DNA of 64,000 bases from a virus. How positions within the stretch are numbered: position 1 is the first letter of the stretch; each line of letters opens with the position of its first letter. Below are positions 1 to 57,517 of this stretch, piece after piece. The stretch lies in the IMG/VR virus record IMGVR_UViG_3300037245_000806, positions 1 through 64,000 of that record; one strand, 5' to 3'. The position numbers were made by a program, and so were the translations under genes. The notes under the pieces are model-generated. The model did no database searches and was not told the DNA's origin. It saw only the letters and a list, made by a program, of their open reading frames with translations.

Positions 1-69
1 CATATCAACCAAAGGGTGCTCACCCTCCTTCGGTATCTTCCCGAACTTGGCTTCATCAACGGGATGCAT
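1..69 (-). CDS. Hypothetical protein, N-terminal part only
   Basis: Partial gene running off the left edge. The ATG at 69 follows a strong ribosome binding site (GGAGG, six bases before the start). The 23 visible codons are open and begin MHPVDEAKFG. It overlaps the end of the NrdR-like gene by 14 bases, which suggests coupled translation. Too little is visible to assign a function. Confidence 0.6.
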   Translation of the reverse strand, partial: MHPVDEAKFGKIPKEGEHPLVDM

Positions 70-544
70 TAACTTCCTCCTGCTCGATAAGAAGTCCTGT
101 GCGTTTCGCGAAGTCCCAGACAATCCCCAGCATGTCAGCCGCGTCCTTCGGTGACTCCCATTCCAGCGCGAACCGTAGCGCTGCAACCGGATGCAGATTG
201 AGCAACAGCATTTCTGCGTACCCCGCCAGCCGCTCCGTTGTGAACTCGGGCTGGACCATCAGCGTGGGCACGAGTATCTTCAGCGCGTCCTGAACCTCCA
301 AGAATGGGATGTCCAGCTTCGAGCAATGCCGCTCAATTCGATCCTGAAAGATGTCCGGGTTGAAAAGCTCGACCTTCCCATCCTTGTGCCTCACTTTTGT
401 CTTACCCGGAACCACCCTCTCGTAGGTAGTCCAGCGATGTTTGCACAGGTGACACTCCCTCCTGCGCCGATACGTCACCCCACCTTCAGCCGGGCGACCA
501 TCGACCACACCGCTATCGTCCTTGCGACAAAGTGGGCATATCAT
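56..544 (-). CDS. nrdR: NrdR-like transcriptional regulator
   Basis: 162 residues, the usual NrdR length. The N-terminus carries a zinc ribbon with C3, C6, C31 and C34, and the run YRRRREC and the motif TTYERV match NrdR. Residues from about 48 on resemble the ATP-cone domain that senses ATP/dATP. In bacteria NrdR represses ribonucleotide reductase genes, so the phage copy may reset host or phage dNTP synthesis (inference). No reductase gene is visible here. The gene follows the 84-residue gene by 8 bases and overlaps the next start. Confidence 0.85.
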   Translation of the reverse strand: MICPLCRKDDSGVVDGRPAEGGVTYRRRRECHLCKHRWTTYERVVPGKTKVRHKDGKVELFNPDIFQDRIERHCSKLDIPFLEVQDALKILVPTLMVQPEFTTERLAGYAEMLLLNLHPVAALRFALEWESPKDAADMLGIVWDFAKRTGLLIEQEEVNASR

Positions 545-2989: not shown

Positions 2990-4726
2990 TCAAAACCCCT
3001 TCTGGAAATAATCGCGGATGCACTGAGCGCGGTCCTTTGCGTGGACATACGCGCACATCTGCGCGAAGCGCTTCAACTCGCGTGCGCGTTTTGCTTCGAT
3101 TTCCTCGCGGGGCAGGAAGTCCTCAAGCTTTGCGAGCCACTGCTTGACGCGCGTAGTCTTCCCTCGGAATTGCCTCTCAACCCTAATGATGCCCTTCTTG
3201 TTCAGCACGCTGAGCGCCCGTGAGAAGGCCAGCTTACTCATGCCAAGCTTGGACGCCATCGAAGCCCGGTCAATGTGAAGCTCGCAGCATTTCTGCAACT
3301 GGCCCGTCGCTAGGTCAGCAAGCTCAGCCGCGACCTTGGTGACCACCTTGCCGGTCGCGTCCCCGAGTTGCTCCTTGTCCACGAGCAACGTCGCGCCTGA
3401 GCCTGCGTATGCGCGCACGACAAGATCGTTCTTCTCCATCATGTTGAGCACCGTGCGCACAACGCCTGACTCAATGCAGTGCCCGGCGCTCTTCAGTATG
3501 GCGGATATTGCAGCACAGGACAGCGAGAGTTGTTCTCTCGGGCCTGTAACCGCGAGATGGAGGTATTCCCATATGCACTCGAATGCCTCATAGGGAGGAT
3601 TGGCCTCTTCGAGGAACGCCTGTTGAAGCGTGTAGCTATAGTCACTGTTGAGAAGTATGGCCCGTGAGTTCTTGCCGTCACGCCCGGCCCGGCCTGACTC
3701 CTGCACGTAAGCTTCGAGCGAGCCGGGGATGCCGAAGTGTACAACCTCGCGAATGTTCGGCACGTCAATCCCCATGCCGAAGGCGCACGTGGCGACGATG
3801 ACCGGAAGCTTGCCGTCCTTGAACGCGTTCTGAACCTTCTCGCGCTCTTCCTTGCGCATCCCGCCGTGATAGAAGCCGACGCACCCCGGATACAGCTGGC
3901 GCTCCACGATCTCAGCGATCTTCTGTGATGCCGCCCGCGTCCCGACGTACACGATGTACCGCCCATGCGCCGTGTCGAAAGCACGAGCGATACGGTTTAT
4001 CGCGGACCACTCATTGGTATGGCAGACCTCATACTTGATGTTCGGCCTGACCGGGTCACCGACGAAGCGCACGTAATCGTCACGCATCCCAATGGACTCA
4101 GCGATGTCATCCTCGATGTCAGCCGTCGCAGTAGCCGTCACCGCAATGACCTGAGGACGCTCGTCTTCCCCGTGTGCTTCGCCGATAGCGTCGAGAATCA
4201 GCTTGATGCGCGAGTACATCGGTCGGAAGTCGTGGCCCCACATGGACGCGCAGTGCGCCTCGTCAACGACCAGATAGCTGATATGCGCGCTCCTGATCGT
4301 CGCAAGGAACTCCTTGGACCTGAGCCGTTCCGGCGCGACGTACAGGAGCTTGTACGAGCCGCCAATGAAGTCGTCTAGGCGCTCGGTTCGTTCGTCTTCA
4401 TCCACGTGGCTGTTGACATAGGTCGCCGGGATGCCGCGAGCATTGCAGTCGTCCACCTGATCCTTCATCAGCGCGATGAGGGGCGATATAACGAGCGTGC
4501 TGCCTTCGGCAATCATTGCAGGTATTTGGAAGCATACACTCTTGCCGTATCCGGTCGGAAGGACAGCAAGCACGTCTTTGCCGCTGAAGATGTCACGTAG
4601 CACGCGGGCTTGGTCCGCACGGAAGTCGTCAAACCCCCAGCGATCCTTGAGCACCCCGCGAGCGGCTTCCATGATTTCGTCCATGGACCTGTTGAGGTCT
4701 GCGGCGATTTCGCTTGTACTAGGCAT
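2990..4726 (-). CDS. RecQ-like ATP-dependent DNA helicase
   Basis: 578 residues. RecQ family features are in order: motif 0 near residues 29-40, Walker A LPTGYGKS (56-63), DEAH box (155-158) followed by the RecQ-type aromatic loop with WGHDFRP, and motif VI ESGRAGRDG. These enzymes unwind DNA 3' to 5' in repair and recombination. The last residues (MCAYVHA...CIRDYF) resemble only the first half of the RecQ zinc domain, so RQC and HRDC parts appear truncated or replaced by a winged-helix-like segment. The start at 4726 follows GGAG; the frame extends to 4921 without a better site. A promoter is predicted at 4799-4827. Confidence 0.9.
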   Translation of the reverse strand: MPSTSEIAADLNRSMDEIMEAARGVLKDRWGFDDFRADQARVLRDIFSGKDVLAVLPTGYGKSVCFQIPAMIAEGSTLVISPLIALMKDQVDDCNARGIPATYVNSHVDEDERTERLDDFIGGSYKLLYVAPERLRSKEFLATIRSAHISYLVVDEAHCASMWGHDFRPMYSRIKLILDAIGEAHGEDERPQVIAVTATATADIEDDIAESIGMRDDYVRFVGDPVRPNIKYEVCHTNEWSAINRIARAFDTAHGRYIVYVGTRAASQKIAEIVERQLYPGCVGFYHGGMRKEEREKVQNAFKDGKLPVIVATCAFGMGIDVPNIREVVHFGIPGSLEAYVQESGRAGRDGKNSRAILLNSDYSYTLQQAFLEEANPPYEAFECIWEYLHLAVTGPREQLSLSCAAISAILKSAGHCIESGVVRTVLNMMEKNDLVVRAYAGSGATLLVDKEQLGDATGKVVTKVAAELADLATGQLQKCCELHIDRASMASKLGMSKLAFSRALSVLNKKGIIRVERQFRGKTTRVKQWLAKLEDFLPREEIEAKRARELKRFAQMCAYVHAKDRAQCIRDYFQKGF

Positions 4727-4798
4727 ACCACTCTCCGTTTCTAAATTCGGGTGCCGAGCGCGCCATCCGCGCTGCCGTTTCCCGTGTTCGACCGTGCG

Positions 4799-4827
4799 CT
4801 TGTACAGTGCTGCATGTACGCCGTCAA
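4799..4827 (-). promoter_or_regulatory. Predicted sigma70-like promoter of the helicase operon
   Basis: TTGACG, 17 bases, TACAAG. The sequence just upstream is A-rich (GGAAAAAAGAC). It gives a leader of about 66 bases before the ATG at 4726. Operator site 4 lies further upstream. Confidence 0.5.
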
Positions 4828-4870
4828 GTCTTTTTTCCGTACAGGGCGATAAATCTTTCTGGGGGTTTTG

Positions 4871-4885
4871 GTAACACAGTGTCAA
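4871..4885. promoter_or_regulatory. Dispersed operator-like palindrome, site 4
   Basis: GTAACACAGTGTCAA. It contains the TGA stop of the 65-aa gene (4882-4884) and lies about 45 bp upstream of the helicase promoter. Confidence 0.7.
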
Positions 4886-5079
4886 GCCGCCCGCGAAGCA
4901 AGATAGAGCACGCAGTCCCACATCATCTGGTGGAACTTGGCCCGTGTCACTTCGTACACCTTCGGGCGATCTTGAATGGTAAAGGATACGTGGGTCTTCG
5001 TGATCGTCTCGATCTTGACATGAAGACCACCGCTATATGTCATGTACACGTCGCCCTCTTTGACGATGTAGCTATCCAT
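4882..5079 (-). CDS. Hypothetical protein (65 aa)
   Basis: Starts at MDSYIVKEGD, where GGAGGAAGCGC precedes an ATG that overlaps the previous stop (TGATG). The alternating pattern with IVKEGDVYMTY looks like a small beta-barrel of SH3/KOW type, but this is only a visual impression. Function unknown. Confidence 0.7.
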   Translation of the reverse strand: MDSYIVKEGDVYMTYSGGLHVKIETITKTHVSFTIQDRPKVYEVTRAKFHQMMWDCVLYLASRAA

Positions 5080-44828: not shown

Positions 44829-45557
44829 TTAGCGCTGACGATTGACAATGTCATCGACATAGCCGGTTGTCATCTCGATCTTTCCGGCCTCAAGTGACGC
44901 GGGGATGGGAAGGCGCTGCTCGATCAACCACGCGAAGAAGTCTTCCATGTCTGGCCTGTCTTCGTTGGAACTCCACTGCTCCGCGAAGACCTGAAGCCAC
45001 TCACTGGAACCGCCCACAGCAGCATTCCCATACTCGTCTATGGCGAGCACAGCCTTGGACCCCTGCACGGAATTCAGGAAGATTCGACCAACCTTGCGAA
45101 GGCCGCTATTGCGCTCCTGTAGTTCCTTCACGACGTCAATCTCAGGTCGTGCGTTGACTGCCTCGATCCATGGGCTGATGTCAATGCCATCGCCGAGTGA
45201 CTCCTGAAGATTCGCCAACGCAGTCAGGTACTCACTGCGATGCAGGTCTGTGTTTTCGCGTGCGCTCACGATACGTGCGGCCATATCGGCATCCGCAGCC
45301 CCGGCCAACACAATGTCCTTCGCGTCACCCATTGCCCAGCTATACGGCTCTTCCCCGACAAGTGGAGGTATGGGCTCGAACTCGTCATACGCGACTTCCA
45401 AGCCCTCACCCAACGCCCACGAAATTGTCCACCAATGTGCCCACAGAACCACAGACACGCCCTCGGAGGAGAGCGCGAAGTCAACCGGAACATCTTCCTC
45501 GTAGTACGGGGAGTGCAATTGGAGCCCACGCATGCTCGCCTGAACAAGGTCTATCAC
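44829..45557 (-). CDS. Hypothetical protein (242 aa)
   Basis: GTG start overlapping the TGA of the giant gene, after AAGGAGA. The first third is beta-rich, the middle helical, and residues about 165-205 again beta-rich (SKAVLAIDEYGNAAVGG). It is translationally coupled to the giant gene and may be its partner or chaperone (inference from coupling). Confidence 0.6.
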   Translation of the reverse strand: MIDLVQASMRGLQLHSPYYEEDVPVDFALSSEGVSVVLWAHWWTISWALGEGLEVAYDEFEPIPPLVGEEPYSWAMGDAKDIVLAGAADADMAARIVSARENTDLHRSEYLTALANLQESLGDGIDISPWIEAVNARPEIDVVKELQERNSGLRKVGRIFLNSVQGSKAVLAIDEYGNAAVGGSSEWLQVFAEQWSSNEDRPDMEDFFAWLIEQRLPIPASLEAGKIEMTTGYVDDIVNRQR

Positions 45558-48500
45558 AGCTTCTCCTTGCCAACCAACACAAACACTTTCTCAGGGGGTT
45601 GCTTCTGCGGTCCGAAAGCTGTCCAGCCACGCTCTGCACACATGTCAAGAATAGCGTCTATATCACTTTGATTCGCGCACGTGGCACGGTAAAGGTAATC
45701 GAGAAGGTTAATGCCGTGTCGAACGTTCACTTGATACCGTGACATCGTGTTAAGCGCGCCAGAAGAACTGCCGTAGCCTTCGTCAAAATCCCTTTTCCAT
45801 TGCTCGGGCGTCATCAAGCGCTCTTTGACGTCACTGCCAAATTCGTCACCACGACCGACAACGACGCAATCAGTGCGCAGAGCAAGAGACTTATCAAAGT
45901 AAAGCACGTGATCCTGCTTCGTGGCTGCCTTACGGAAGCCCAAGAATACACCCTGCGTACCGCCATAACCGTAGTCTGACTCAACCGAAGCGCCTGTGTT
46001 GCCTGCGCCCCAGAACGACCTGACATTATGCGCCATGAGAATTGGCAATTCACCCAGCGACTTGATATACGACTTGGTGGTGCTGTTCAAACCATGCCCT
46101 ACATAGAAGTGCTTGCCAAAGAGCTTTTCCAGCTTTGCCCTGTCCCAGCCAAGGCGTTCGTGGCGCATGTACCCCACACTGCCTTCGTCGTACCGCCCGG
46201 CGAGCAATGGTTTGGCCTCAGCCTTAGCCTTGGTCACAGAGATTCCAAGAGCTTTTGCCGTTTGCTTCTGCAAGGCAGACAACGCCAGATCGTCGGCACC
46301 CTTACGGTACAGCTCCATGGCAGTCGTATACTCAGGGGTCACAACGCCAGTACCGTCCGACTTTGGCTTAATTTCGCCACCACTCTGATTCAAGTAGGCC
46401 TGCTTGGACCAGAATAGAATCTCTTTATCCTTCTCCGTAGCCACAGACATATCGATGCCGGTTGCCTGCGCAAAGAGCGTGAACAACGTTGCAATAGTTG
46501 CTGCGGACGCCGTCCCCTCAATGTACCCCCAAGACTGCCCTTGATGGCCTTTAACGCCCGTCTGCAATCCGGGCAGATTGGAGTCCATACCCGTGGAGTT
46601 CACGAAGAGTTTTGCGCCCAACGCCTTGGCCACGATCACAAACTGGTCCTGATTAGCGCCTGCGTAAACGTCATGGCTATCGTGCTGAAGAAGCAACGTG
46701 CCGTCCGCCTCCTGAACTACCTTTGGCCACTTGGCGTGGCTGTTCCCCTTCACGTCGAAAGCCTTCGGCACGTCGGGTTGCTCGTCAGATTCATCGACCT
46801 CAGGGGCTTGCCACAGGAACTCGCCCAGCTTCGGCGTGTGCTTACCCTTATGCGCAAGGAGGTCAGCCATGATAGGCTCAATGTACAAAGTGAGGTATTC
46901 AAGGTACATCCCGGCCATCGAGTTCACGATAGCGTTGGGCTCGTCCATCGGGCCATAAGTTCCAGCCGTCTTACCAGTAGCCTTTATGATCGCTATCAGG
47001 TCGGGCTTGATAGCAAAACAGGCCGCCATGGTCTTCTCGTTTACCGCCATATCCTGATTAGCCCCGCCGCCATCCTCTTCAGGGGCGAGGTGGTAGTTGA
47101 TCGACTTGATCGCGGCTTGGATTTTGGACCAGAAACCGTTCTGCGAGTCCACGGCCAATAGGTGCGGCCCCCCACTCCCCGTCACTTGCTTGATAACACC
47201 GGACTGCTTGAGCAACTTCGGAACAGCAAGCATCCCGGCGTGGCGTGCCATACGGAAATGAATGAGTGTTGCCGGAACCTTCTTACCCGGCGACTTCTCC
47301 CACATCACCGCCTTGACCATCACCTCCTGCTGCTCTATGGAATCACGGTCCACCTTCATCGCTCGCCCGCGTATCGGATACGCGGAGGCTATCGCTATGT
47401 CTTCCGCCTGCGCCTTGCCAAAACCCAAGGTCTTCGGATCAATGCGCAGCCGTGGTGCCTTCATCGACATCTTGATCTTGCCGATCTTCGGCCACTTGAA
47501 GTCGCTCTGAAGCTTCTTCAGCACCTTGGTCCAATCCTTCAGGTAGTTCTTCTGCCGTTTGTACAGCGTGTCAAGAATCTTGGTGCGCTTAGCCCCCGTG
47601 ATATCCTCAGACGCGAAGATGGGCGCGAGGAGCCCCTGAATATGCTTCTCCGTTAGCTTCCTGATCTTCTCGATCATTTCCCGAGCGGCCTTCCAAGCCA
47701 ACTCAGGTATCTCAGCCGTGGAGGCACCCCAATCATTCAGAAGCTTCTTTGCGTAGCCCTCCCCAACATTGCCCTTCGGATGCCAATGGGGGTCGAGACT
47801 CTCCGTAAGGCCCTTGAGTACGAACTTGAAGGCCTGTCCTCGATCAACAGGAACAAGACGCCCGGCCTTGAGTCGCATCCAGTTCCCGCGATGCCCGTCA
47901 TGGTCACCCATGAACATGTCGAGCATATGCTGTGTAAGGATTTCACCCTTGTCTTCATCCGGCAGGTCATTGGGGTCTGACTCAGGCGGCGAGCCTTCAA
48001 GCAATGGCTGGAAACTCCCGAGCTTCCCGTTGAACTCCATTTTCCCGACAGGTACCGTTGGCGTCTTGTCAACAAGCTGCGCCAGTTTGAAGGCTGCAAC
48101 CTCAACGTGTACCCGAACCTCAGCTTGGTCCTTTGGCGTCTTGAAGAACCATTGAAAGCCACCCGGCGAGGAGAGGACAGCGCAAGGATTGCTCCCACCG
48201 CTAATTGTGCCGCCCGTGTCCTTGAAGAGTCCGGGCTCAGGCGCACTGACCTGCTGTAGTATCGCGGGTGAATCGAACGCGATTTTAGCTGTGCCGATCT
48301 TCACGACAGGGGCAATGACGGGCTTCCACGCGGGCACAGCTGCGTATGACTTCTGCACCATTCCCGTCGCCGTGGGCGGCGCACCCACCGGAGCTTTCGT
48401 CTTCTTCGCGAGCTTGTTCTTGCCCTTGTGTGAGGCCTTCATGCGCGCCTTGAGCATACCGATGACAGCTTCGTACACAGGCTTCGTTGCAGCACCGGGT

Positions 48501-51500
48501 ATGAACAAAGACGCCACGTCCTGCACAACTATCTTCGTCATAATCGACCATGCAGGAAACTTGACCTTCTTCATCCACGCCGTGCTGAACGTCGTCATGT
48601 TTGTACCGACGGCCTTCAAATTTCCGCCGTTAGCGTAGAGTTGCTGAATCAACTTATTAGTCTTGGGGTCAGGGTGAGTGAACCACGCGTCGGGATTGCC
48701 AAAGCCTTCGTCACCGGACACCGGGAGGTACGCCCCCATTGCGGTGTCGGTCGCGGACAAAACGATATACTGTCCGGCCTTATTCTGTGAGAACATAAGC
48801 TTGTGCTGCTTCTTCATTGTGTCCGTGACAGCGAGGTAGCCAAGACACACAAGAGGTGCCCCGTGCAGCAGGAACACGTCACCAAACGAGACACCCGGAA
48901 CACTGGCGTGCTGACGTGAGCAATTGAAGGCGGCAGGAGCATACCCCTCTTCTGCTACGACGTCCTTCAGCACCGTGAGCATTTCTTCGTTGACCGGATA
49001 CGGGCACTTGAACAAGAGCGCGCGCCATATGTCAGCCTTGCTGGTGTCCGCAGGGATCGTCTTAGTCTTTGCCATGACCGGTGAGACGACGGGGTAGAAG
49101 TCTTTAGCCTTCGTGGCGTATTCCTTCTTGCCGGTCGGCCCTTCAGCCTCCATCTGCCAATACAGCGTGCGCCAATCGAAATCAGTACCCGACTGCATTA
49201 CAATCGCAGTCGTGACAAAGCCCCCGGTGGTCACGTACCGCATGTAACCAATAACAGTCTGTTGTAGCTTTTCAATTTTGACGGTGACCTTAACGCCGGG
49301 CGGAGGATAGCCCTGATCCAACATCGACAGCGCTGGAATCCATGCCCACGTCTTTGCGTCCGGTAAACTCAATGAAGCAGACACCCACGCCACTGCACCC
49401 GCTGGGACAGCGTAGTCAACAATACTGGCCTGCTGGTCTGTGCCGGTGGCCGCTATCGTGTGCATGTCATTCGGATTGAACGCCACAACGCCGGTCTGCC
49501 CCTCGACGTCCTGCGGACCAGTGACCTGACTATACGCGTCGGCCTTCTCACCCGTGAAGAGGTGCGGCCAACCCTTGTCAAGAAGCCACTTGACCGTGGC
49601 GTCGGTGACCAGCTGATCACGCTTGTGCAGTTCCCCGTACCACGGCAGCTTCTGGTACGAAAGGGGCACTGGCTTGAATGTCACAGCGTCAGTCTCACTG
49701 CCCGCCTTCAGGGGGTCGCCGCCCGTGATATAGCCAATGAAGAATCGCGTGACTGAGTCGTTGCCCTTGAAATCGCCTAGATAACCCACGGGCTTCACGG
49801 CGAGGCCTGTCTCCTCGTACACTTCCCTGACAGCCGTCTGCTCAAGTGACTCGCCCTTGTCCACGGTCCCCTTCGGGTACGTGAGCGTGTACCCGCCGTA
49901 GTCGTTCATCGGGTTGACCAAGAGGAAGAGCGTGCTCGGTGCGGGTGCCATGGACTCGCCGTCGCTCATCATCGCCAGCGGAGGCATGACGGCAATGATA
50001 CCTGCTGAGATGTGTCCTCCCGTGGGGAGCTTCGCCATGGGGGGCTGCTCCACTGGGTCGGGGTCATCCCAGCCGTATGGCAGAGGAACACCCGCCCCGA
50101 TATTGGCGTCATAGGGGGTCTTCAGCGTCAAGCCTTGGCCGTTCATCTTGCTGAAGACCATCTCACCGGTAACCGAATTCATGTCGGCGCTGTGCTTGAA
50201 CGCGATGGTGTAGCTGTTCGCAAGGTCTTCGACTTCGACGAGGTACGTGGCATCGTCGTCCTTGTGCCGCAGGACCGCCAACTTTTCACCTGTTGGCTCG
50301 CCCATCTTCGTCTGGTCTACCCACGCAATCAACTTGATCTTCTGGGGCTCAGTGGCGGGCTTGTACACCAGCTTAGCACCGACAGGGAATGGCGCGTCGT
50401 CTGGCGACGGGACGTAAATCAGTTTGTCTTCCAGCGCCACCTTCTTCGCGGTGCTGCTCAGCGCATAGTTAAGCTTCGGGAACGCAACCACCTCCTTGCC
50501 GGGGGCCGGGAGGAGTTCGTCCACCACGTCCTGCAAAATCTCGATCATGGGGCCATACGCCATGTTCCCTGAGAGCGCCTGCTTAAAATTGATGTTCCCC
50601 TTCTCAGTCATGATGATGTAGTAGTGCTTCGGCGAATCGCCATCTGGTTGTCGCGCGTACCCGATGATCGTGCGCGTCTTGGCGTGCCCGTAAGCAAGCT
50701 TCCCCCCAAGATCAAACATGAAGATGGGGCTGTCGCCCTTCGTGAGGGGTACAAAGCCCTTCTTCGCGATGAACTGAAGTGCCTCCGGGGTGCCTGACAT
50801 CTTCGACGGGCCAGCCTCCGAGTCCAGCGCGTCTTCAGCACCTCGCTCGGGTCGCGGACCTTCGGGCTCATAGCTGGACGTGACCGGCTTGCCTATGGAC
50901 GCGTAATCGATGACGTAGTAATTGGGGTACGTGATTGTGTTGCCGCTCAGCGTGATGGTGTCGAACGCATATGCCAAGACAACCTTGCCGTCGTCTGTAT
51001 CGAAGGCACTGACAAGGGTGTAATCCTTGTCGCCGAGCGCAACAGGGCCACCGGCAGAAAAGCCCGGCGGCAGGCTAATCGCAGACGCCGTTGTCCAATT
51101 CGGTATGGTCACGTACTTCTCGCCGGTCATCGTGCCGTCAACGTGCGTGGCAATGTCTACACCACTGTCCTCAATCGACTCCTTCAACTGAGTCTCGACA
51201 TTGCACCCTGTCGCTGACGCATGCAGGCGCAACAGCTGATACATACCGTCGTCAAAGCCAAGGACCAAGTAGTTCCCCAGACCTTGCCGCTTAACGATGG
51301 TGCCGATCTCGAACTTCATCGGAGGCCCGCCTTCAGTGGCGGTCGTGGGCGTGCCAGCTATTTCCGGCGTTTGCGAGGCCACGTTCAAGACATTCGGGTC
51401 TTTCCAGCCCGACAACTTGATGTTGCCCTCCGAAATGATATCAGCGAAGTCACCGTCATCCTGCCAGATTAGCTCGCCGTCAGGATTGCGGATGATGATG

Positions 51501-53305
51501 ATCAAACCCTCGGGCGTCGTATACACCGCGAGGAACACGAACACGTCGCCGTTCTTGTCTGTGAGCGTCATGCCCTCTGAGAGGTGCCCGCTAAAACGAT
51601 TGTAAGCCGCCATTGACGAGTCTGTGTCATTGAACGACGCCTTCTCAAATGTCGTGTAGTGGTTGGGGAAGTCAGCCGCGAGAAGCTCGTCGATCTCGCC
51701 TTCCTGCGTCGTAACAGGCTCCTGCACAGCCGCAGGTGCCACCACAGTCTGGCCATACAGAGTTCCGGGCATGTCCTTGTGCGCCTGCTTGACGACAGTC
51801 GTGCCTCCGGTCAGATCGCTGGTAAAATTGTGGTCCAAGATACCTACCACTTTGCCCTGCGGATTCTCGACCATGTGTACGACCGTACCTGACGCGTTCT
51901 TCCACGCGCCAAGATACACGTAGTCCACGCCAGCCAACGTTATTATGGAGTAAACACCCAAGGGCGTCTTCTTACCCAACGCCACGAACGCCGCCTTGGT
52001 GCTCTTGACCGGGGTGGTCTTTGAGTTCTTCCAAGCAGGGCCGCTGAGATACTTGGCGACCTTCGCCTTTTCCGACTTCTTCGCAAGCGTCTGCTGAAGC
52101 TTGATGCCGTCCTTGGGTATCGGGTTGCCCTTCACGAACTGCTCGAAGTATGGGCGCACGTCAGCGTCACGTGGGATGTTCTCTAGAATGTGCTGCCAGT
52201 TGCCCTTCTTCCAATCGGCGATGAAGATATGAAAGAGGTTACCGGCAAGCTTGTTCTGTGCTGTCCATCGCCGAGCGGAGCCGAGAAGCTTCTTGGCAAA
52301 TGGCGGCGGAATGTTCTTGCCGTAGTACGCCTTCCATACGAGCGAGATCACCTCGGCCTCAACGCCGCTGAACTTCGGATCGCCAGCTGAGGAGACGTAC
52401 CGACCGCCGTCAGGATGGAAGTAGGAGATGCACGTGTTGATCGTGTCATTGTACGATAACCACGACAGCGGATTCTGGCCATACTTCGGCGGCTTCGCCG
52501 ATAGCTCGTTGTACTCCTTGACGATATCAGGCGCTTCCGTGGCGAGGATGAAGTACGCCACGAATGGAGCCCACACAAGCTTCGCAGCCTGCTTCGGGTT
52601 CATGCCCGTGAAGACATACTTCTTGAACGCCTCCAAGACCAGCTTATCGTCAGGCGGCGTGTTGCGCTTGAGGAACGCAAGGTCACGTGAGGCGGCAATG
52701 CGATACTCAACGTCTTCCGCCATCATCGCACGATACAGCGTTCGGAACGGGTTCGGTGTGTGATAGCGCCTGTACACCGCGTTCCCGACAGCCTCAGCGC
52801 TCTGACCGAATGCCTGCCTGAGGTCCAGTGGCCATCCTGTTGCACGCATGTAGTTCTCAGTGAAACGCGCTGCCTTGCGTGGGTTCAGATCGTACTCGTA
52901 ACGCCACGCGCCGAGTGCGAAGCGATTGTACACACCTTCCGGGCGAAGGGTCATGAGTTCCGTCACGGGATCAGCCGGAATGATGCCCTGCTCAACTGAC
53001 TCCTTGAAGACCCGGTCGGACCACGCACGCCCGCTGGCTGAACCGTGTAGGTACCACGATTGAATCAGCGCGGAGTCCTGAAGGGTCTTGAAGGATTGCA
53101 CCTCTTCGAGATACGGCTTCGCGTTGACCGCGAAGAAGCGGTGCAGCTTGGCAACAACATCGAGAGTCACGTGACCGCTGGCGAGAGCCTCAGCCATACT
53201 GAAACCAGCGACACCGGGTAGCTTCCCCTCGGGATCACTGTGGGCGTCTAGGCCCTTCTGGGCGGCACGCTGAACAATCGCTGGAACGATGAAGGTCATT
53301 GGCAT
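45554..53305 (-). CDS. Giant multidomain protein with Nudix and kinase-like cores
   Basis: 2,583 residues starting MPMTFIVPAI after GAGGG. Residues 1-400 are helical. From about 440 to 1,600 run beta-rich stretches of similar shape (GDVFVFLAVYTTPEGL, LGNYLVLGFDDGMY, DYTLVSAFDTDDGKV), suggesting diverged repeats. A perfect Nudix box lies at 1146-1168 (G...E...REVYEETGL). Residues 1801-1827 carry GDHDGHRGNW and VPVDRGQAF, the catalytic and metal loops of PI3K/HipA-type kinases. The last 200 residues are a separate domain (VGHGLNST, GGTQGVFLGF, GRGDEFGSD) that might be an ADP-ribosyltransferase or similar (weak). Position beside capsid genes suggests an injected internal head protein like T4 Alt (inference). 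Confidence 0.75.
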   Translation of the reverse strand: MPMTFIVPAIVQRAAQKGLDAHSDPEGKLPGVAGFSMAEALASGHVTLDVVAKLHRFFAVNAKPYLEEVQSFKTLQDSALIQSWYLHGSASGRAWSDRVFKESVEQGIIPADPVTELMTLRPEGVYNRFALGAWRYEYDLNPRKAARFTENYMRATGWPLDLRQAFGQSAEAVGNAVYRRYHTPNPFRTLYRAMMAEDVEYRIAASRDLAFLKRNTPPDDKLVLEAFKKYVFTGMNPKQAAKLVWAPFVAYFILATEAPDIVKEYNELSAKPPKYGQNPLSWLSYNDTINTCISYFHPDGGRYVSSAGDPKFSGVEAEVISLVWKAYYGKNIPPPFAKKLLGSARRWTAQNKLAGNLFHIFIADWKKGNWQHILENIPRDADVRPYFEQFVKGNPIPKDGIKLQQTLAKKSEKAKVAKYLSGPAWKNSKTTPVKSTKAAFVALGKKTPLGVYSIITLAGVDYVYLGAWKNASGTVVHMVENPQGKVVGILDHNFTSDLTGGTTVVKQAHKDMPGTLYGQTVVAPAAVQEPVTTQEGEIDELLAADFPNHYTTFEKASFNDTDSSMAAYNRFSGHLSEGMTLTDKNGDVFVFLAVYTTPEGLIIIIRNPDGELIWQDDGDFADIISEGNIKLSGWKDPNVLNVASQTPEIAGTPTTATEGGPPMKFEIGTIVKRQGLGNYLVLGFDDGMYQLLRLHASATGCNVETQLKESIEDSGVDIATHVDGTMTGEKYVTIPNWTTASAISLPPGFSAGGPVALGDKDYTLVSAFDTDDGKVVLAYAFDTITLSGNTITYPNYYVIDYASIGKPVTSSYEPEGPRPERGAEDALDSEAGPSKMSGTPEALQFIAKKGFVPLTKGDSPIFMFDLGGKLAYGHAKTRTIIGYARQPDGDSPKHYYIIMTEKGNINFKQALSGNMAYGPMIEILQDVVDELLPAPGKEVVAFPKLNYALSSTAKKVALEDKLIYVPSPDDAPFPVGAKLVYKPATEPQKIKLIAWVDQTKMGEPTGEKLAVLRHKDDDATYLVEVEDLANSYTIAFKHSADMNSVTGEMVFSKMNGQGLTLKTPYDANIGAGVPLPYGWDDPDPVEQPPMAKLPTGGHISAGIIAVMPPLAMMSDGESMAPAPSTLFLLVNPMNDYGGYTLTYPKGTVDKGESLEQTAVREVYEETGLAVKPVGYLGDFKGNDSVTRFFIGYITGGDPLKAGSETDAVTFKPVPLSYQKLPWYGELHKRDQLVTDATVKWLLDKGWPHLFTGEKADAYSQVTGPQDVEGQTGVVAFNPNDMHTIAATGTDQQASIVDYAVPAGAVAWVSASLSLPDAKTWAWIPALSMLDQGYPPPGVKVTVKIEKLQQTVIGYMRYVTTGGFVTTAIVMQSGTDFDWRTLYWQMEAEGPTGKKEYATKAKDFYPVVSPVMAKTKTIPADTSKADIWRALLFKCPYPVNEEMLTVLKDVVAEEGYAPAAFNCSRQHASVPGVSFGDVFLLHGAPLVCLGYLAVTDTMKKQHKLMFSQNKAGQYIVLSATDTAMGAYLPVSGDEGFGNPDAWFTHPDPKTNKLIQQLYANGGNLKAVGTNMTTFSTAWMKKVKFPAWSIMTKIVVQDVASLFIPGAATKPVYEAVIGMLKARMKASHKGKNKLAKKTKAPVGAPPTATGMVQKSYAAVPAWKPVIAPVVKIGTAKIAFDSPAILQQVSAPEPGLFKDTGGTISGGSNPCAVLSSPGGFQWFFKTPKDQAEVRVHVEVAAFKLAQLVDKTPTVPVGKMEFNGKLGSFQPLLEGSPPESDPNDLPDEDKGEILTQHMLDMFMGDHDGHRGNWMRLKAGRLVPVDRGQAFKFVLKGLTESLDPHWHPKGNVGEGYAKKLLNDWGASTAEIPELAWKAAREMIEKIRKLTEKHIQGLLAPIFASEDITGAKRTKILDTLYKRQKNYLKDWTKVLKKLQSDFKWPKIGKIKMSMKAPRLRIDPKTLGFGKAQAEDIAIASAYPIRGRAMKVDRDSIEQQEVMVKAVMWEKSPGKKVPATLIHFRMARHAGMLAVPKLLKQSGVIKQVTGSGGPHLLAVDSQNGFWSKIQAAIKSINYHLAPEEDGGGANQDMAVNEKTMAACFAIKPDLIAIIKATGKTAGTYGPMDEPNAIVNSMAGMYLEYLTLYIEPIMADLLAHKGKHTPKLGEFLWQAPEVDESDEQPDVPKAFDVKGNSHAKWPKVVQEADGTLLLQHDSHDVYAGANQDQFVIVAKALGAKLFVNSTGMDSNLPGLQTGVKGHQGQSWGYIEGTASAATIATLFTLFAQATGIDMSVATEKDKEILFWSKQAYLNQSGGEIKPKSDGTGVVTPEYTTAMELYRKGADDLALSALQKQTAKALGISVTKAKAEAKPLLAGRYDEGSVGYMRHERLGWDRAKLEKLFGKHFYVGHGLNSTTKSYIKSLGELPILMAHNVRSFWGAGNTGASVESDYGYGGTQGVFLGFRKAATKQDHVLYFDKSLALRTDCVVVGRGDEFGSDVKERLMTPEQWKRDFDEGYGSSSGALNTMSRYQVNVRHGINLLDYLYRATCANQSDIDAILDMCAERGWTAFGPQKQPPEKVFVLVGKEKL

Positions 53306-53316
53306 AATTAGCCCTC

Positions 53317-53331
53317 GTAACACTGTGTTAA
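53317..53331. promoter_or_regulatory. Dispersed operator-like palindrome, site 13
   Basis: GTAACACTGTGTTAA, here with the central base in the opposite orientation to most sites. It lies 12 bases before the giant gene and about 13 bases downstream of the predicted transcription start. Confidence 0.7.
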
Positions 53332-53343
53332 GCGGTTGCGGAC

Positions 53344-53371
53344 ATTATGCACTTTAGATGGCAGGCGTCAA
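53344..53371 (-). promoter_or_regulatory. Predicted promoter of the giant gene
   Basis: TTGACG, 16 bases, CATAAT. The -35 box lies at the 3' end of the methyltransferase gene. The leader is about 32 bases and contains operator site 13. Confidence 0.6.
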
Positions 53372-54571
53372 GGCCTGCCAATCGGCATCTTCTCCATGAA
53401 CCTGCTCGACCCAACGCATACGAATCGTGTCAACGTGAGTTGGGCTCATCTCAGCCATGTAGCAGACACGACCGAGCGCCTCAGCTGCGGCGAGCGCGGT
53501 ACCCGATCCACCGAAGGGATCGAAGACAATTTGGCCTTCCGAGGTCGAGTCCTCAACCATCTGGGTAATCAATTCCACGGGTTTCTGGCAGGGGTGCAGC
53601 TTGTTGACCTTGGGCTGCGGGTACTCAAAGACATTCGAGCAAATCCGGTTCGGCTTCGGCAACGCAACGCCAGCACGACCGCCGTAAAGGAGGAGGTCGA
53701 ACTGATGCATGTAGTCACCCTGCGTGAGGTTCCACGAGTCCTTCGCCCACATGAGCCACTGGTGTACCTCGCCCTTGTTCATTAGCCATGACTCGAAGAG
53801 GTTGGGCAGGAAGCGACTCGCGCAAAAGACATACGACGCGCCCTTCGTGACAGACAGGATGGTCTTGCACATGGCAGTCAGGAACATCGCCCACGAATCG
53901 CTGTCCATGTCGTCGTTATCAATGCCCTCCCACGAGTAGTTCTCGTAATCGACATTGTACGGCGGGTCGGTGATGCAGACGTGCGCCTTCTTGCGCCCGA
54001 AGAGGTCGAGCACTGCGCCGGGTTGCATGATGTCGCAGCACGCGAGACGGTGCTTGCCCAACTTATAAATGGTGTCCTTCTTCGACGCGGCTTTGTCTGG
54101 TGCCTCGGGTGTCTTGTCCTTCGCCCTGTTCTGAAGCTTCTTATCCTTCGGCAACAGCGCGTGAATGGACTCCTGTAGCTCAGCGAAACCCATCACGTCA
54201 AGCTGCGGCAATGACTTGCGTATCGACTCAAGCTGAGGGAGCGCCTTCTCCGCGTCCCAATGGCCCTGCACCGCTGGGTTATTCATCACGAGGTTCGCCG
54301 TCTTCTCAGTCACCTCATCGAACTCGACGACGATGCAGTCCACGAACTCAAAGCCCTCCTCAACGAGGCCTCTGATTCGCTGATGCCCCGAAATGCAGCG
54401 CGGAGGATCGACGGCAACGTTGACCACCGGTACTTCGAGAAGGGTCAGCGCGCGGAGGGATTCCTTGAGCCCGCGAAGAGCGTCGGGCGTGATGTCTCGC
54501 GGGTTGTAGTCGGCAAGCTCGATGTCAGCTAGGCGAAGCTTCCGGGTCTCCGGCTGAAGCGCTGCGGGCAT
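53354..54571 (-). CDS. ParB-domain DNA (adenine-N6) methyltransferase
   Basis: 405 residues. Residues 10-105 are a ParB/sulfiredoxin-like domain with the GHQRIR motif. A methyltransferase follows with the catalytic DPPY at 202-205, HPCQKP at 326-331 and the SAM-binding DPFGGSG at 351-357. DPPY before FGGSG is the beta-class order, so it probably methylates adenine N6 (or cytosine N4). Such genes often lie near phage packaging genes and protect or mark DNA. The paralogue at 54809-56089 has lost the catalytic motif. Confidence 0.85.
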   Translation of the reverse strand: MPAALQPETRKLRLADIELADYNPRDITPDALRGLKESLRALTLLEVPVVNVAVDPPRCISGHQRIRGLVEEGFEFVDCIVVEFDEVTEKTANLVMNNPAVQGHWDAEKALPQLESIRKSLPQLDVMGFAELQESIHALLPKDKKLQNRAKDKTPEAPDKAASKKDTIYKLGKHRLACCDIMQPGAVLDLFGRKKAHVCITDPPYNVDYENYSWEGIDNDDMDSDSWAMFLTAMCKTILSVTKGASYVFCASRFLPNLFESWLMNKGEVHQWLMWAKDSWNLTQGDYMHQFDLLLYGGRAGVALPKPNRICSNVFEYPQPKVNKLHPCQKPVELITQMVEDSTSEGQIVFDPFGGSGTALAAAEALGRVCYMAEMSPTHVDTIRMRWVEQVHGEDADWQALTPAI

Positions 54572-54839
54572 TTTTGGTCTCCTTCACAACTTGCGCGAGC
54601 GCGTGTGCGCGTGCGCCGTTACTCGACATGGCTCTCAGCCGGGTGTAAAGCCTGTGCGCTGATTCAGCGGTCTCGCGCACGATCTTACTGGTTTCAGACT
54701 CAGGGTCATCAAGTTCCTTGAGCCTTTGCGCCGCCCTCTCTGCAATAGCCTTGCGCAACTCAGGTGACAACGCGCTGAGCGCCGCGTGTAGTTTGTTCTT
54801 TGAAGCCGTCAATCGATCATTGGTGTCACGGCCTGCCAC
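54525..54839 (-). CDS. Small helical protein between the two methyltransferase genes
   Basis: 104 residues. I chose the GTG at 54839 because GAGGGGG precedes it. It overlaps the upstream pseudo-methyltransferase by 31 bases and the active methyltransferase by 47 bases. Nearly all helical (ELRKAIAERAAQRLKELDD). It could be a small packaging or adaptor protein; nothing identifies it. Confidence 0.55.
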   Translation of the reverse strand: MAGRDTNDRLTASKNKLHAALSALSPELRKAIAERAAQRLKELDDPESETSKIVRETAESAHRLYTRLRAMSSNGARAHALAQVVKETKNARSASAGDPEASPS

Positions 54840-56089
54840 TTCGCCCCCTCGCCATGTACGAACGTGGCCCATCGCTTCCGCACGATGTCGCAGAGCCGGG
54901 GCGTTCGCACGTATCCGATGAGCCGACGACCTGTCTTCTCAGCTGCAATGACCGTGGCCCCTGTGCCCATGTTCGGATCAAGCACGGTGTCGCCGATCTT
55001 CGAGGAGTCCATGATCGCGCGAGTCACGATCTCGACCGGCAACTTCGTCGTGGGCTTACGCTTCAAGCGGAACAGATTGCCAACGCTGCGCTCGCCCTTC
55101 ACCGCATTCCTCGCACGGAAGTATCGAGGAGAGCCTTCGCGCCAACCGTAGAGGACCGGAATCGTCGCCTCCCGGTAAGGGTACTTGGAGCTTGCCTTGA
55201 GCGAAGGGATCATCCACGCAAGCGTGTTGGACCAATGCCCCCCGAGCGCCACGAACCTTTGGTGGAGTCGCGGCAGCGTGAGAAGATTACTCGCTACGTA
55301 GACGTTGCCGTCAGTGTTATCGAGCGTGTGCTGAAGCATGACGTTCAAGAAGTCTTCGTTCACGTGCTTGGTCTCAGCGATGCACGTGAAAGCCATATCG
55401 GCGACCTTGACAGGAAAGCCTTCAAGGCTCCCCGGCTTCTCAATGGCGGCGCAAGCAATGACGTGCTCGCCCAGCTGATAGAGCCGTCCCCGTACTGACT
55501 CGGGTGATGTGCGCGCCACGGAGGGCTCAATATCCTCGTCAACCTTGCCGTGATTCTCGACGTCGTCAACGCCAGCCACAGCGCGAAGACTCCGCAAGGT
55601 GGTCTTGAGAAGTGAGTCCAGCCGCAGTGACTTGAGTTGCTTCTGTGCCTTGTCCCCGAGGGTCGAGCCGATGTCAGCGAGTAGTCGCTTCGTGAGTTCC
55701 GGTATGAAGTGCCCCCGGATGGTGCCGTTGTTGAGCGCGAAGTTGGCCCGGCGCTCCGTGGCATCATCGAAGCGGACGACAATGCAGCTAACCTCCTCCA
55801 CGCCATGAGCGATAAGCTGCCGGATGCGCTGGTGACCGCCGACGATACGCGCGCTGCCCTTGCGTAGGTTCACGACAGGGAAGGCGAGCAACCCCAGCTG
55901 CTGAAGGCTATTCGAGAGCCCGGTGAGCGCGTCCTGCGTAATGGACCTCGCGTTGTACGGGGCCTCTTCGAGCGCTGCTATGTTGAGGGTCTTCAGGGTG
56001 ACGCTGGCGTACTTCGGGTCGGCCTTCGGCTTCTTCACCGCAGACTTGCTCTTCTTCTTGGCGCTCTTCTTCTTCTTACGGGCAACCAT
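54809..56089 (-). CDS. ParB-domain methyltransferase paralogue, catalytically degenerate
   Basis: 426 residues starting MVARKKKK after GAGGGAGGG. A lysine-rich leader is followed by a ParB domain with GGHQRIR (84-90). The methyltransferase domain aligns with the neighbour to the last residues (WQAVTPMI against WQALTPAI). At the catalytic site the neighbour has DPPY, but this protein has CIAE (236-239). The SAM loop is changed to DPNMGTG (371-377). It probably cannot methylate but may bind DNA or form a heterodimer with its neighbour, as METTL14 does with METTL3 (analogy, inference). Confidence 0.75.
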   Translation of the reverse strand: MVARKKKKSAKKKSKSAVKKPKADPKYASVTLKTLNIAALEEAPYNARSITQDALTGLSNSLQQLGLLAFPVVNLRKGSARIVGGHQRIRQLIAHGVEEVSCIVVRFDDATERRANFALNNGTIRGHFIPELTKRLLADIGSTLGDKAQKQLKSLRLDSLLKTTLRSLRAVAGVDDVENHGKVDEDIEPSVARTSPESVRGRLYQLGEHVIACAAIEKPGSLEGFPVKVADMAFTCIAETKHVNEDFLNVMLQHTLDNTDGNVYVASNLLTLPRLHQRFVALGGHWSNTLAWMIPSLKASSKYPYREATIPVLYGWREGSPRYFRARNAVKGERSVGNLFRLKRKPTTKLPVEIVTRAIMDSSKIGDTVLDPNMGTGATVIAAEKTGRRLIGYVRTPRLCDIVRKRWATFVHGEGAKWQAVTPMID

Positions 56090-56143: not shown

Positions 56144-57517
56144 TCAACTCACCCAATCAGCGAAATTCACAGCACTCTGTCGAGCTTCGGCGTCGGTCTT
56201 GATCTTACCGGCCTTCGCTCGCTGTTCCTTCTCCCAATCGTCCTGCTTGCCCATCTCCCAATCGCCGTGGTACGTCAGCTTCGGAAAGAACTTGTCGCCG
56301 ACACCAAAGCCACTGAAGGCACGGTGCGACCAGCCATACCACTTGCCGGTCTTCGCGCCCTTGCCGATGCTGGCCACCTCGTGACTCGAATGTGATTTCT
56401 CAGGCGTGATCTTGTACCGATTTCGGAAGTCCTTCGGATTGTCACGCCAATGCTTCTCGTCCAACGCGATGGGGAACATCACGTCTGCGCGCTCGGAAAT
56501 GAAGCGTGAGCCCCGAAAGCGAAACTGCTCAGTCGGGACGTATACGCCGTCCTGTTCGCGCTCGAAGAGGATGGACAAGTCGGGACGTGCATGGATGTAG
56601 TATTCGGTCGCAGGCTGCACTGACTCAACGATGAAATTAGACTGACCGGGGCGCAGGAAGAGCGGGCCTTCGACCACGGAACGATCCATCGCCTCGATGA
56701 TCGCCTCGGTGGTCCCATGCTTCTTCCCGGTCTTCTTGGCCTTGTACTTCTTGGCGTTGAACGGGGGCGGTACCTTAGGCTTGGGCCATTCGTTCTTCCC
56801 CGGCTTGTCGAACGTTCGCGTGGCGGGGTTTTGCTGCTTCTTGAGCCACGCCTTCCCGATAGGATTCTTCAACGGGCGCTTGAGGATACGCTGCCCAAGG
56901 TTATGTAGCTGCGGCTTGATAACCGCGACCCAATCGTCAACGCTCACGTCCACGTTGTTATCGACAATGCGCATGTTCTTCGGGCCGAAGAGCTTGGCGT
57001 ACTTCTCCATATTCCGGTGCGCGCCACGCCACGCATCTTCCACGAAGCTGTCGGGCACGAAACGTCCACCGGCTTCTTTGCGCACGCGGTTGCGTTCGAG
57101 CGCCTTCTCAAGTGACGTGGTCACGAAGACCATGAAGATGTCATAGCCGAGCGCCCTGAGTTTCCGGGCGGGTTTGGCAACGCGGTCATAGGCCCATGCG
57201 GTACCGTCGATGATGAGCCCGAGGCGTCGTTGAGCGTAGTGGCGCAACTCCATCTTCATGGCATCACGCGCCTTGGTGAAGAGCCCGTATTCTTTGCCGA
57301 CCTCGGCGGGGGGTATACCGGCGAATTTCATGTAACGCTCAAGGTGCTTGTCTGCGTTGATGATCTTGAGGCCCGCACCGCCGAAGAGCGCCGTGGATAC
57401 CAGCGACTTGCCTGCGCCACCAGCACCGGCGAGGAAGACGGCGCGTAGGGTATGCGAGTCGCGAAGCCCCTCAGAAACCACAGAGTCTTCGGACACGAAC
57501 GCCTCACTCAGACTCAT
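56144..57517 (-). CDS. Zeta-toxin/polynucleotide-kinase-like P-loop protein
   Basis: 457 residues. Walker A GAGGAGKS at 31-38, then IINADKHLERYMK, LIIDGTAW, VFVTTSLEKALERN and a lid R..GRFVP, as in zeta toxins and T4 polynucleotide kinases. The C-terminal domain contains GKWYGWSHRAFSGFGVGDK (about residues 390-410), a motif I associate with head-region proteins of large myoviruses. It may phosphorylate nucleic-acid ends, a nucleotide or a cell-wall precursor; the substrate is unknown. Confidence 0.7.
   Translation of the reverse strand: MSLSEAFVSEDSVVSEGLRDSHTLRAVFLAGAGGAGKSLVSTALFGGAGLKIINADKHLERYMKFAGIPPAEVGKEYGLFTKARDAMKMELRHYAQRRLGLIIDGTAWAYDRVAKPARKLRALGYDIFMVFVTTSLEKALERNRVRKEAGGRFVPDSFVEDAWRGAHRNMEKYAKLFGPKNMRIVDNNVDVSVDDWVAVIKPQLHNLGQRILKRPLKNPIGKAWLKKQQNPATRTFDKPGKNEWPKPKVPPPFNAKKYKAKKTGKKHGTTEAIIEAMDRSVVEGPLFLRPGQSNFIVESVQPATEYYIHARPDLSILFEREQDGVYVPTEQFRFRGSRFISERADVMFPIALDEKHWRDNPKDFRNRYKITPEKSHSSHEVASIGKGAKTGKWYGWSHRAFSGFGVGDKFFPKLTYHGDWEMGKQDDWEKEQRAKAGKIKTDAEARQSAVNFADWVS

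Follow-up and report, generated by a model that had tools for sequence, protein, structure and literature searches.

Why would a phage keep, beside an intact ParB-methyltransferase, a second full-length copy that has apparently lost its active site, and what could such a copy do? The question is raised by a 64,000-nucleotide stretch of DNA (the window; positions 1 to 64,000 of IMG/VR record IMGVR_UViG_3300037245_000806), which belongs to a 143,033-base virus record from a tailed phage with myovirus genes for a tail sheath, a head protease and a major head protein. Two genes on the minus strand, each defined by its open reading frame and translation, make up the locus. The upstream gene (54809..56089) encodes a 426-aa protein with a ParB domain and an apparently dead beta-class methyltransferase domain (the pseudo-copy), while the downstream gene (53354..54571) encodes a 405-aa protein with a ParB domain and a beta-class amino-methyltransferase domain (the active copy). 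Both genes read one way and share one frame, and read-through of the TGA would give a product of 911 aa. The initial annotation of this DNA described the two proteins as alignable over their full length, and they do align end to end with 33% identity over 426 columns (two-sequence E = 1e-56). No other PF01555 protein was found in the 143,033-base record, and a third, distant match to a profile of the pair (127303-127545) comprises a ParB part only.

A 115-aa open reading frame (54525..54872, minus strand) spans the gap between the two genes, overlapping the pseudo-copy gene at its 3' end and the active gene at its 5' end, and weakly matches phrog_30626. A role for it as a third component was weighed and set aside, as it is not conserved; no counterpart exists in two related phages (G007 and G021), where the pair genes abut, and it probably lies outside the methyltransferase system. 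Directly upstream of the pseudo-copy, a gene at 56144-57517 (minus strand) encodes a zeta-toxin-like kinase (PF06414, E 1e-16) that carries the type I Thoeris inhibitor domain Tad6 (PF25188, E 2e-25) at its C-terminus; the fusion possibly has an anti-defence role. On the other side, 45554-53323 (minus strand) encodes a 2589-aa protein in which a NUDIX domain (residues 1147-1214) is the sole domain recognised and whose N-terminus is conserved in relatives; it looks like a polyvalent protein and is possibly injected. The same phage encodes a RecQ-like helicase (2990-4921, minus strand) and an NrdR-like zinc-ribbon/ATP-cone protein (56-544, minus strand). Among those window neighbours whose families were searched, no cognate endonuclease was recognised near the pair.

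Both copies descend from a recognisable phage family. They match phrog_498, annotated as DNA methyltransferase (E 5e-42 for the pseudo-copy and 2e-82 for the active copy), as well as the beta-class N6_N4_Mtase family PF01555 (active copy, E 2.7e-23), and neither matches MT-A70 (PF05063) in Pfam at E 0.1. The N-terminal ParB_N domain (PF02195) is matched by the pseudo-copy at E 4e-5 with 24.0 bits, under the cut-off of 26.3, and more weakly by the active copy. Thus, the ParB-N6_N4 fusion architecture, an N-terminal ParB fold followed by a C-terminal N6_N4_Mtase domain, is found in both proteins, and fusions of this kind are enriched in phages and prophages (PMC12704722; PMC6536676). The GHQRIR motif that had been pointed out in both ParB parts is present in both translations; its GHQR, nucleotide-binding box II, corresponds to residues 62-65 of the active copy (54377..54388, minus strand) and residues 85-88 of the pseudo-copy (55826..55837, minus strand). 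The active copy furthermore has the DPPY of catalytic motif IV (53957..53968, within TDPPYNV), HPCQKP as motif X (53579..53596) and DPFGGSG as SAM-binding motif I (53501..53521), all on the minus strand, so that the retention of DPPY and DPFGGSG is as previously described. Catalytic motifs IV, X, I and II are present in the active copy of all seven phages that carry the pair, with DPPY in 7/7; elsewhere, active copies have TDPPY, an HP-x-QK motif X and a motif I of the form DPF/DLF/EPF-x-GSG. The active copy is an ordinary member of the phage ParB-N6_N4 methyltransferase fusions.

The pseudo-copy, however, fails in each of these motifs in all seven phages. At the site of the lost motif IV it reads CIAE (55373..55384), with DPPY and the following loop deleted; at KLPVEI (55028..55045) a five-residue deletion removes motif X (HPxQK); and motif I has degenerated to DPNMGTG (54959..54979, all minus strand). 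DPPY is missing from 7/7 pseudo-copies, the alignment showing a gap after a conserved strand, and so is HPxQKP, whose counterpart in EcoP15I contacts the target adenine through motif X residues (PMC4490356). Motif II has lost its acidic residue: where 7/7 active copies have Glu, 7/7 pseudo-copies have Val or Ala. Alignment of the family to CcrM shows that the equivalents of K118 and E135, two active-site residues with a role in stabilising the target base in CcrM (PMC6787082), are absent from 7/7 pseudo-copies. CIAE, DPNMGTG and a lysine-rich leader had been listed as features of this protein, and all are seen in the translation of 54809-56089. The leader (residues 1-26; 56012..56089, minus strand) is basic in 6/7 pseudo-copies and has no equivalent in the active copies (0/7), which suggests that it contacts DNA. 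Judged by its sequence, the loss of the SAM and target-base sites is complete and the pseudo-copy is catalytically dead, as the initial annotation had suspected; in its motif content it is a homologue by descent and not a catalytic member of phrog_498.

Could the losses be artefacts, or signs of decay? Among the 91 full-length ParB-methyltransferase homologues outside the clade that were retained for tree building (from AcaML1 and IMG/VR contigs), the DPPY/SPPY motif is kept in 91/91, and none of the homologues examined has lost motif IV. The same losses in seven diverged copies, set against this background, exclude chance or sequencing error. A decaying pseudogene would likewise lack catalytic motifs, but the pseudo-copy frame is open in seven phages down to ~40% identity, and for the closest pair (G020 vs G010), NG86 gives a dN of 0.131 and a dS of 0.685, a ratio of 0.19, compared with a dN of 0.152 and a dS of 0.564 (ratio 0.27) for the active copy. 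Mean identity of the methyltransferase domain is 45% within the pseudo clade and 44% within the active clade. Together, a dN/dS of ~0.19 and near-equal identities are unlike a gene free of selection; the pseudo-copy is under purifying selection, and the noted retention of the inactive copy is real. As the loss also appears to be a single old one shared by descent, decay is excluded as an explanation and its chance is negligible.

That descent was followed in a tree of the 14 paired proteins and 16 homologues. The seven pseudo-copies form one clade (100/100), as do the seven active copies (100/99), and the two clades are sisters (95/91), with a single-copy active homologue (L034) that has the same C-terminal HGE..W..LTP ending branching outside both (100/98). 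Catalytic losses common to all seven copies of one clade are most simply explained by one ancestral event followed by descent, and the history would most simply be one old duplication, one catalytic death and then co-inheritance. The stem branch of the pseudo clade is longer than that of the active clade (1.03 vs 0.66). Rapid change on this stem, together with a conserved GA[TS][VL]IAAE-like stretch at the former motif I site of the pseudo-copies, would fit a switch from SAM-dependent methyl transfer to another cofactor or chemistry; we consider this very improbable, since the former pocket shows no new set of conserved polar residues that could take over catalysis, and the sites for the target base, motif X and motif II have all disappeared.

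Pairs of ParB-methyltransferases exist in another form. AcaML1 and other contigs encode tandem SPPY and DPPY proteins that are both intact, and neighbouring SPPY and DPPY ParB-methyltransferases recur in phages (L003, L038, L059, L075, L077, L079, L080, L093, L102 and L108), the SPPY-type protein being m4C-like and without HPxxKP, and both copies apparently intact. Such neighbours are apparently a second, separate kind of ParB-methyltransferase pair. An origin of the present pair from a tandem like that of AcaML1 was rejected, as the pseudo-copies are sisters to their own active partners and not to the SPPY class; by its position in the tree, the present pair is a separate duplication inside the DPPY class.

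Conservation of both copies in relatives had been proposed as a check on the pairing. Neither protein, used as a single query, found a match among the viral contigs; relatives were instead reached through the major capsid protein, and their records were then searched for ParB-methyltransferases. The pair was found at the same locus in six more phages of the same capsid type (G005, G007, G009, G010, G020 and G021), each with one gene that has the catalytic motifs and one that has none of them. A profile of the seven pseudo-copies retrieved the same six phages and no others from the viral contigs, with no orphan pseudo-copy, and no pseudo-copy was found in 85k bacterial and archaeal genomes. Every record with a pseudo-copy also has an active copy, and intact loci without one copy are without both, in a sample of related phages that represents few independent events and in which several records are fragments. 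Neither gene occurs in the records of four relatives, G004, G006 (150 kb), G011 (91 kb) and G014 (96 kb); in G004, the upstream kinase gene is directly followed by the gene of the 2589-aa type, with no pair between. The two genes had been annotated as a tandem, which they are in the window, but adjacency is not essential: in three of the seven phages (G009, G010 and G020) they lie 2.5-2.7 kb apart with variable cargo between. As the pair is kept across this gap, its retention is not a by-product of adjacency. The mirror-tree correlation between active and pseudo-copies is r = 0.98, which hardly exceeds the 0.96-0.97 obtained with the capsid protein and thus demonstrates co-inheritance, not contact. 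That the active and pseudo-copy form an obligate pair is well supported.

Across the relatives, no conserved neighbour was found between or beside the pair. Staphylococcal-nuclease-like small proteins, recognised by inspecting translations, flank it in two relatives only (L017:11600-11941 and L143:5197-5628, the latter on the minus strand). Variable cargo between or beside the pair differs per phage (L144:5581-7350, L145:5582-6991, L146:5041-7239 and L017:5838-8780) and includes beta-helix-like and secreted-looking proteins, so that insertions seem to recur at this locus as at a hot spot. In three related phages, a small Cys/His protein overlaps or abuts the 3' end of the pseudo-copy gene (L144:5075-5530, L145:4492-4983 and L146:4856-5257), with no clear counterpart in the window.

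What has the dead copy kept? AlphaFold2 models built from a 56-sequence alignment reached a pLDDT of 86.1 and a pTM of 0.68 for the pseudo-copy and a pLDDT of 86.0 and a pTM of 0.70 for the active copy. Among solved structures, the pseudo-copy model matches CcrM best, then M.BceJIV and M1.HpyAVI-SAM, with ParB-CDP (6sdk) among the lower matches and chains of METTL3-METTL14 and MTA1-MTA9 further down; the active copy model matches the same structure families, including ParB-CDP 6sdk. The methyltransferase domain of the pseudo-copy is thus predicted to keep the full methyltransferase fold. In the ParB part, G, H and R of box II (GHxR) are invariant in 14/14 paired proteins, and the box II arginine is required for nucleotide binding in ParB-fold proteins, which can bind NTPs when fused to methyltransferases (PMC12704722). 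It could be speculated from these features that the pseudo-copy acts alone, as a ParB-type, nucleotide-switched DNA-binding or nicking protein in packaging or genome marking, with the methyltransferase shell as a dimerisation or DNA-binding scaffold. The GHQR box intact in all copies and the lysine-rich tail unique to pseudo-copies would agree with this, as would the link of the ParB-methylase BCE_0392 to DNA nicking, its ParB domain being reported with non-specific nicking (PMC3459991, PMC5512222). However, the pseudo-copy is never without its active sister, and its methyltransferase domain is as conserved as that of the active clade, which makes a solitary role unlikely.

Instead, we think it probable that the two genes encode the catalytic and a dedicated non-catalytic subunit of one phage DNA methyltransferase, derived from a duplicated homodimer. 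Beta-class homodimers already split roles between protomers: in EcoP15I, ModA reads the DNA while ModB methylates (PMC4490356), and in CcrM, catalysis is carried out by molecule A, with B keeping hold of the non-target strand (PMC6787082). Duplication with one-sided catalytic loss is therefore a natural way to fix such a split. The ancestral ParB-methyltransferase would have been a homodimer in which one protomer methylated and the other mainly held and read the DNA. After a single duplication in the ancestor of these phages, one copy would have retained catalysis, whereas in the other only the fold, the nucleotide-binding ParB domain and a basic tail would have outlasted the loss of the SAM and target-base sites. 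The dead subunit may position the DNA and/or activate its catalytic partner, a step that nucleotide binding by both ParB domains possibly gates. It may also be what gives DNA specificity, as the initial annotation proposed, or may load the enzyme or restrain it. The product would be N6-adenine or N4-cytosine methylation of phage DNA, most plausibly serving host restriction evasion or the marking of the genome for packaging.

A physical complex of the two proteins is likely on comparative grounds. When interface positions are mapped by sequence alignment to CcrM, and not by coordinates, the residue aligned with F130, which sits in an aromatic cage of the partner in CcrM (PMC6787082), is Tyr in 7/7 pseudo-copies (Y305) and Tyr or Phe in active copies. 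By the same mapping, the interface position aligned with D113 is Thr in 7/7 pseudo-copies and Trp in 6/7 active copies, and such clade-specific fixation would be expected if a symmetric interface had become asymmetric. Pseudoenzymes often regulate live relatives. As such, the pseudo-copy might pair with the active enzyme as an inhibitor or regulator that holds it off until late infection or packaging, which the co-occurrence and homology evidence fits equally. No positive pointer to inhibition was found, and the pseudo-copy gene, upstream and in the same direction, is placed more naturally for co-assembly, albeit a weak point; we regard inhibition as rather improbable.

How does a pair of catalytic and non-catalytic subunits compare with known systems? 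The phage ParB-N6_N4 fusions (phrog_498, the ParB-Tls locus and BCE_0392) have the same domain order and full-length homology to both copies, but their known members are catalytically intact, whereas the pseudo-copy is without motif IV. The EcoP15I Mod2 and CcrM homodimers are the closest solved folds and have protomers with different jobs; yet, these protomers are identical and both catalytically competent, while here the proposed roles are split over two genes, and in place of their large TRD/CTD the phage proteins carry an N-terminal ParB domain. PacII, a non-canonical type I M1M2S system, is bacterial and also has two different M subunits, but both of these are reported to take part in modification (m6A and m4C), and the system has a separate S subunit (PMC9613975). 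In METTL3-METTL14 and MTA1-MTA9, an active enzyme is joined by a degenerate paralogue without SAM or catalytic residues, and the role described for MTA9 is a structural one, in which it stabilises the binding of substrate (PMC9174199). The same pattern appears in the sequences and predicted folds of the phage pair, where one paralogue is without SAM and catalytic residues while the fold is kept. The parallel with METTL3-METTL14 drawn initially therefore stands for the pairing of an active with a degenerate paralogue and fails for the family: the eukaryotic proteins are MT-A70 without ParB, the phage pair combines PF01555 with ParB, and MTA1c has different partners (p1 and p2). The comparison goes no further than analogy. 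No report of a prokaryotic or phage pseudo-methyltransferase subunit was found in the literature searched, which is not proof of absence. We tentatively suggest that in this pair, for the first time in a viral or prokaryotic N6/N4 DNA methyltransferase, the roles of a homodimer may have been split by duplication between a catalytic and a pseudo-methyltransferase subunit. With a ParB nucleotide-switch domain on each subunit, the reading or loading of DNA may be under the control of NTP binding, and the pair would be an independent, prokaryotic solution of the METTL3-METTL14 type.

Pairs of an active and a pseudo-methyltransferase are typical of eukaryotic m6A/6mA writers. With one old duplication, a single-copy outgroup and seven diverged descendants, these phages offer a natural series for the step from a homodimer to an active/dead heterodimer, which bears on how such pairs arise from symmetric ancestors. 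In addition, the pair gives a functional handle on the common but little-understood ParB-methyltransferase fusions of phages.
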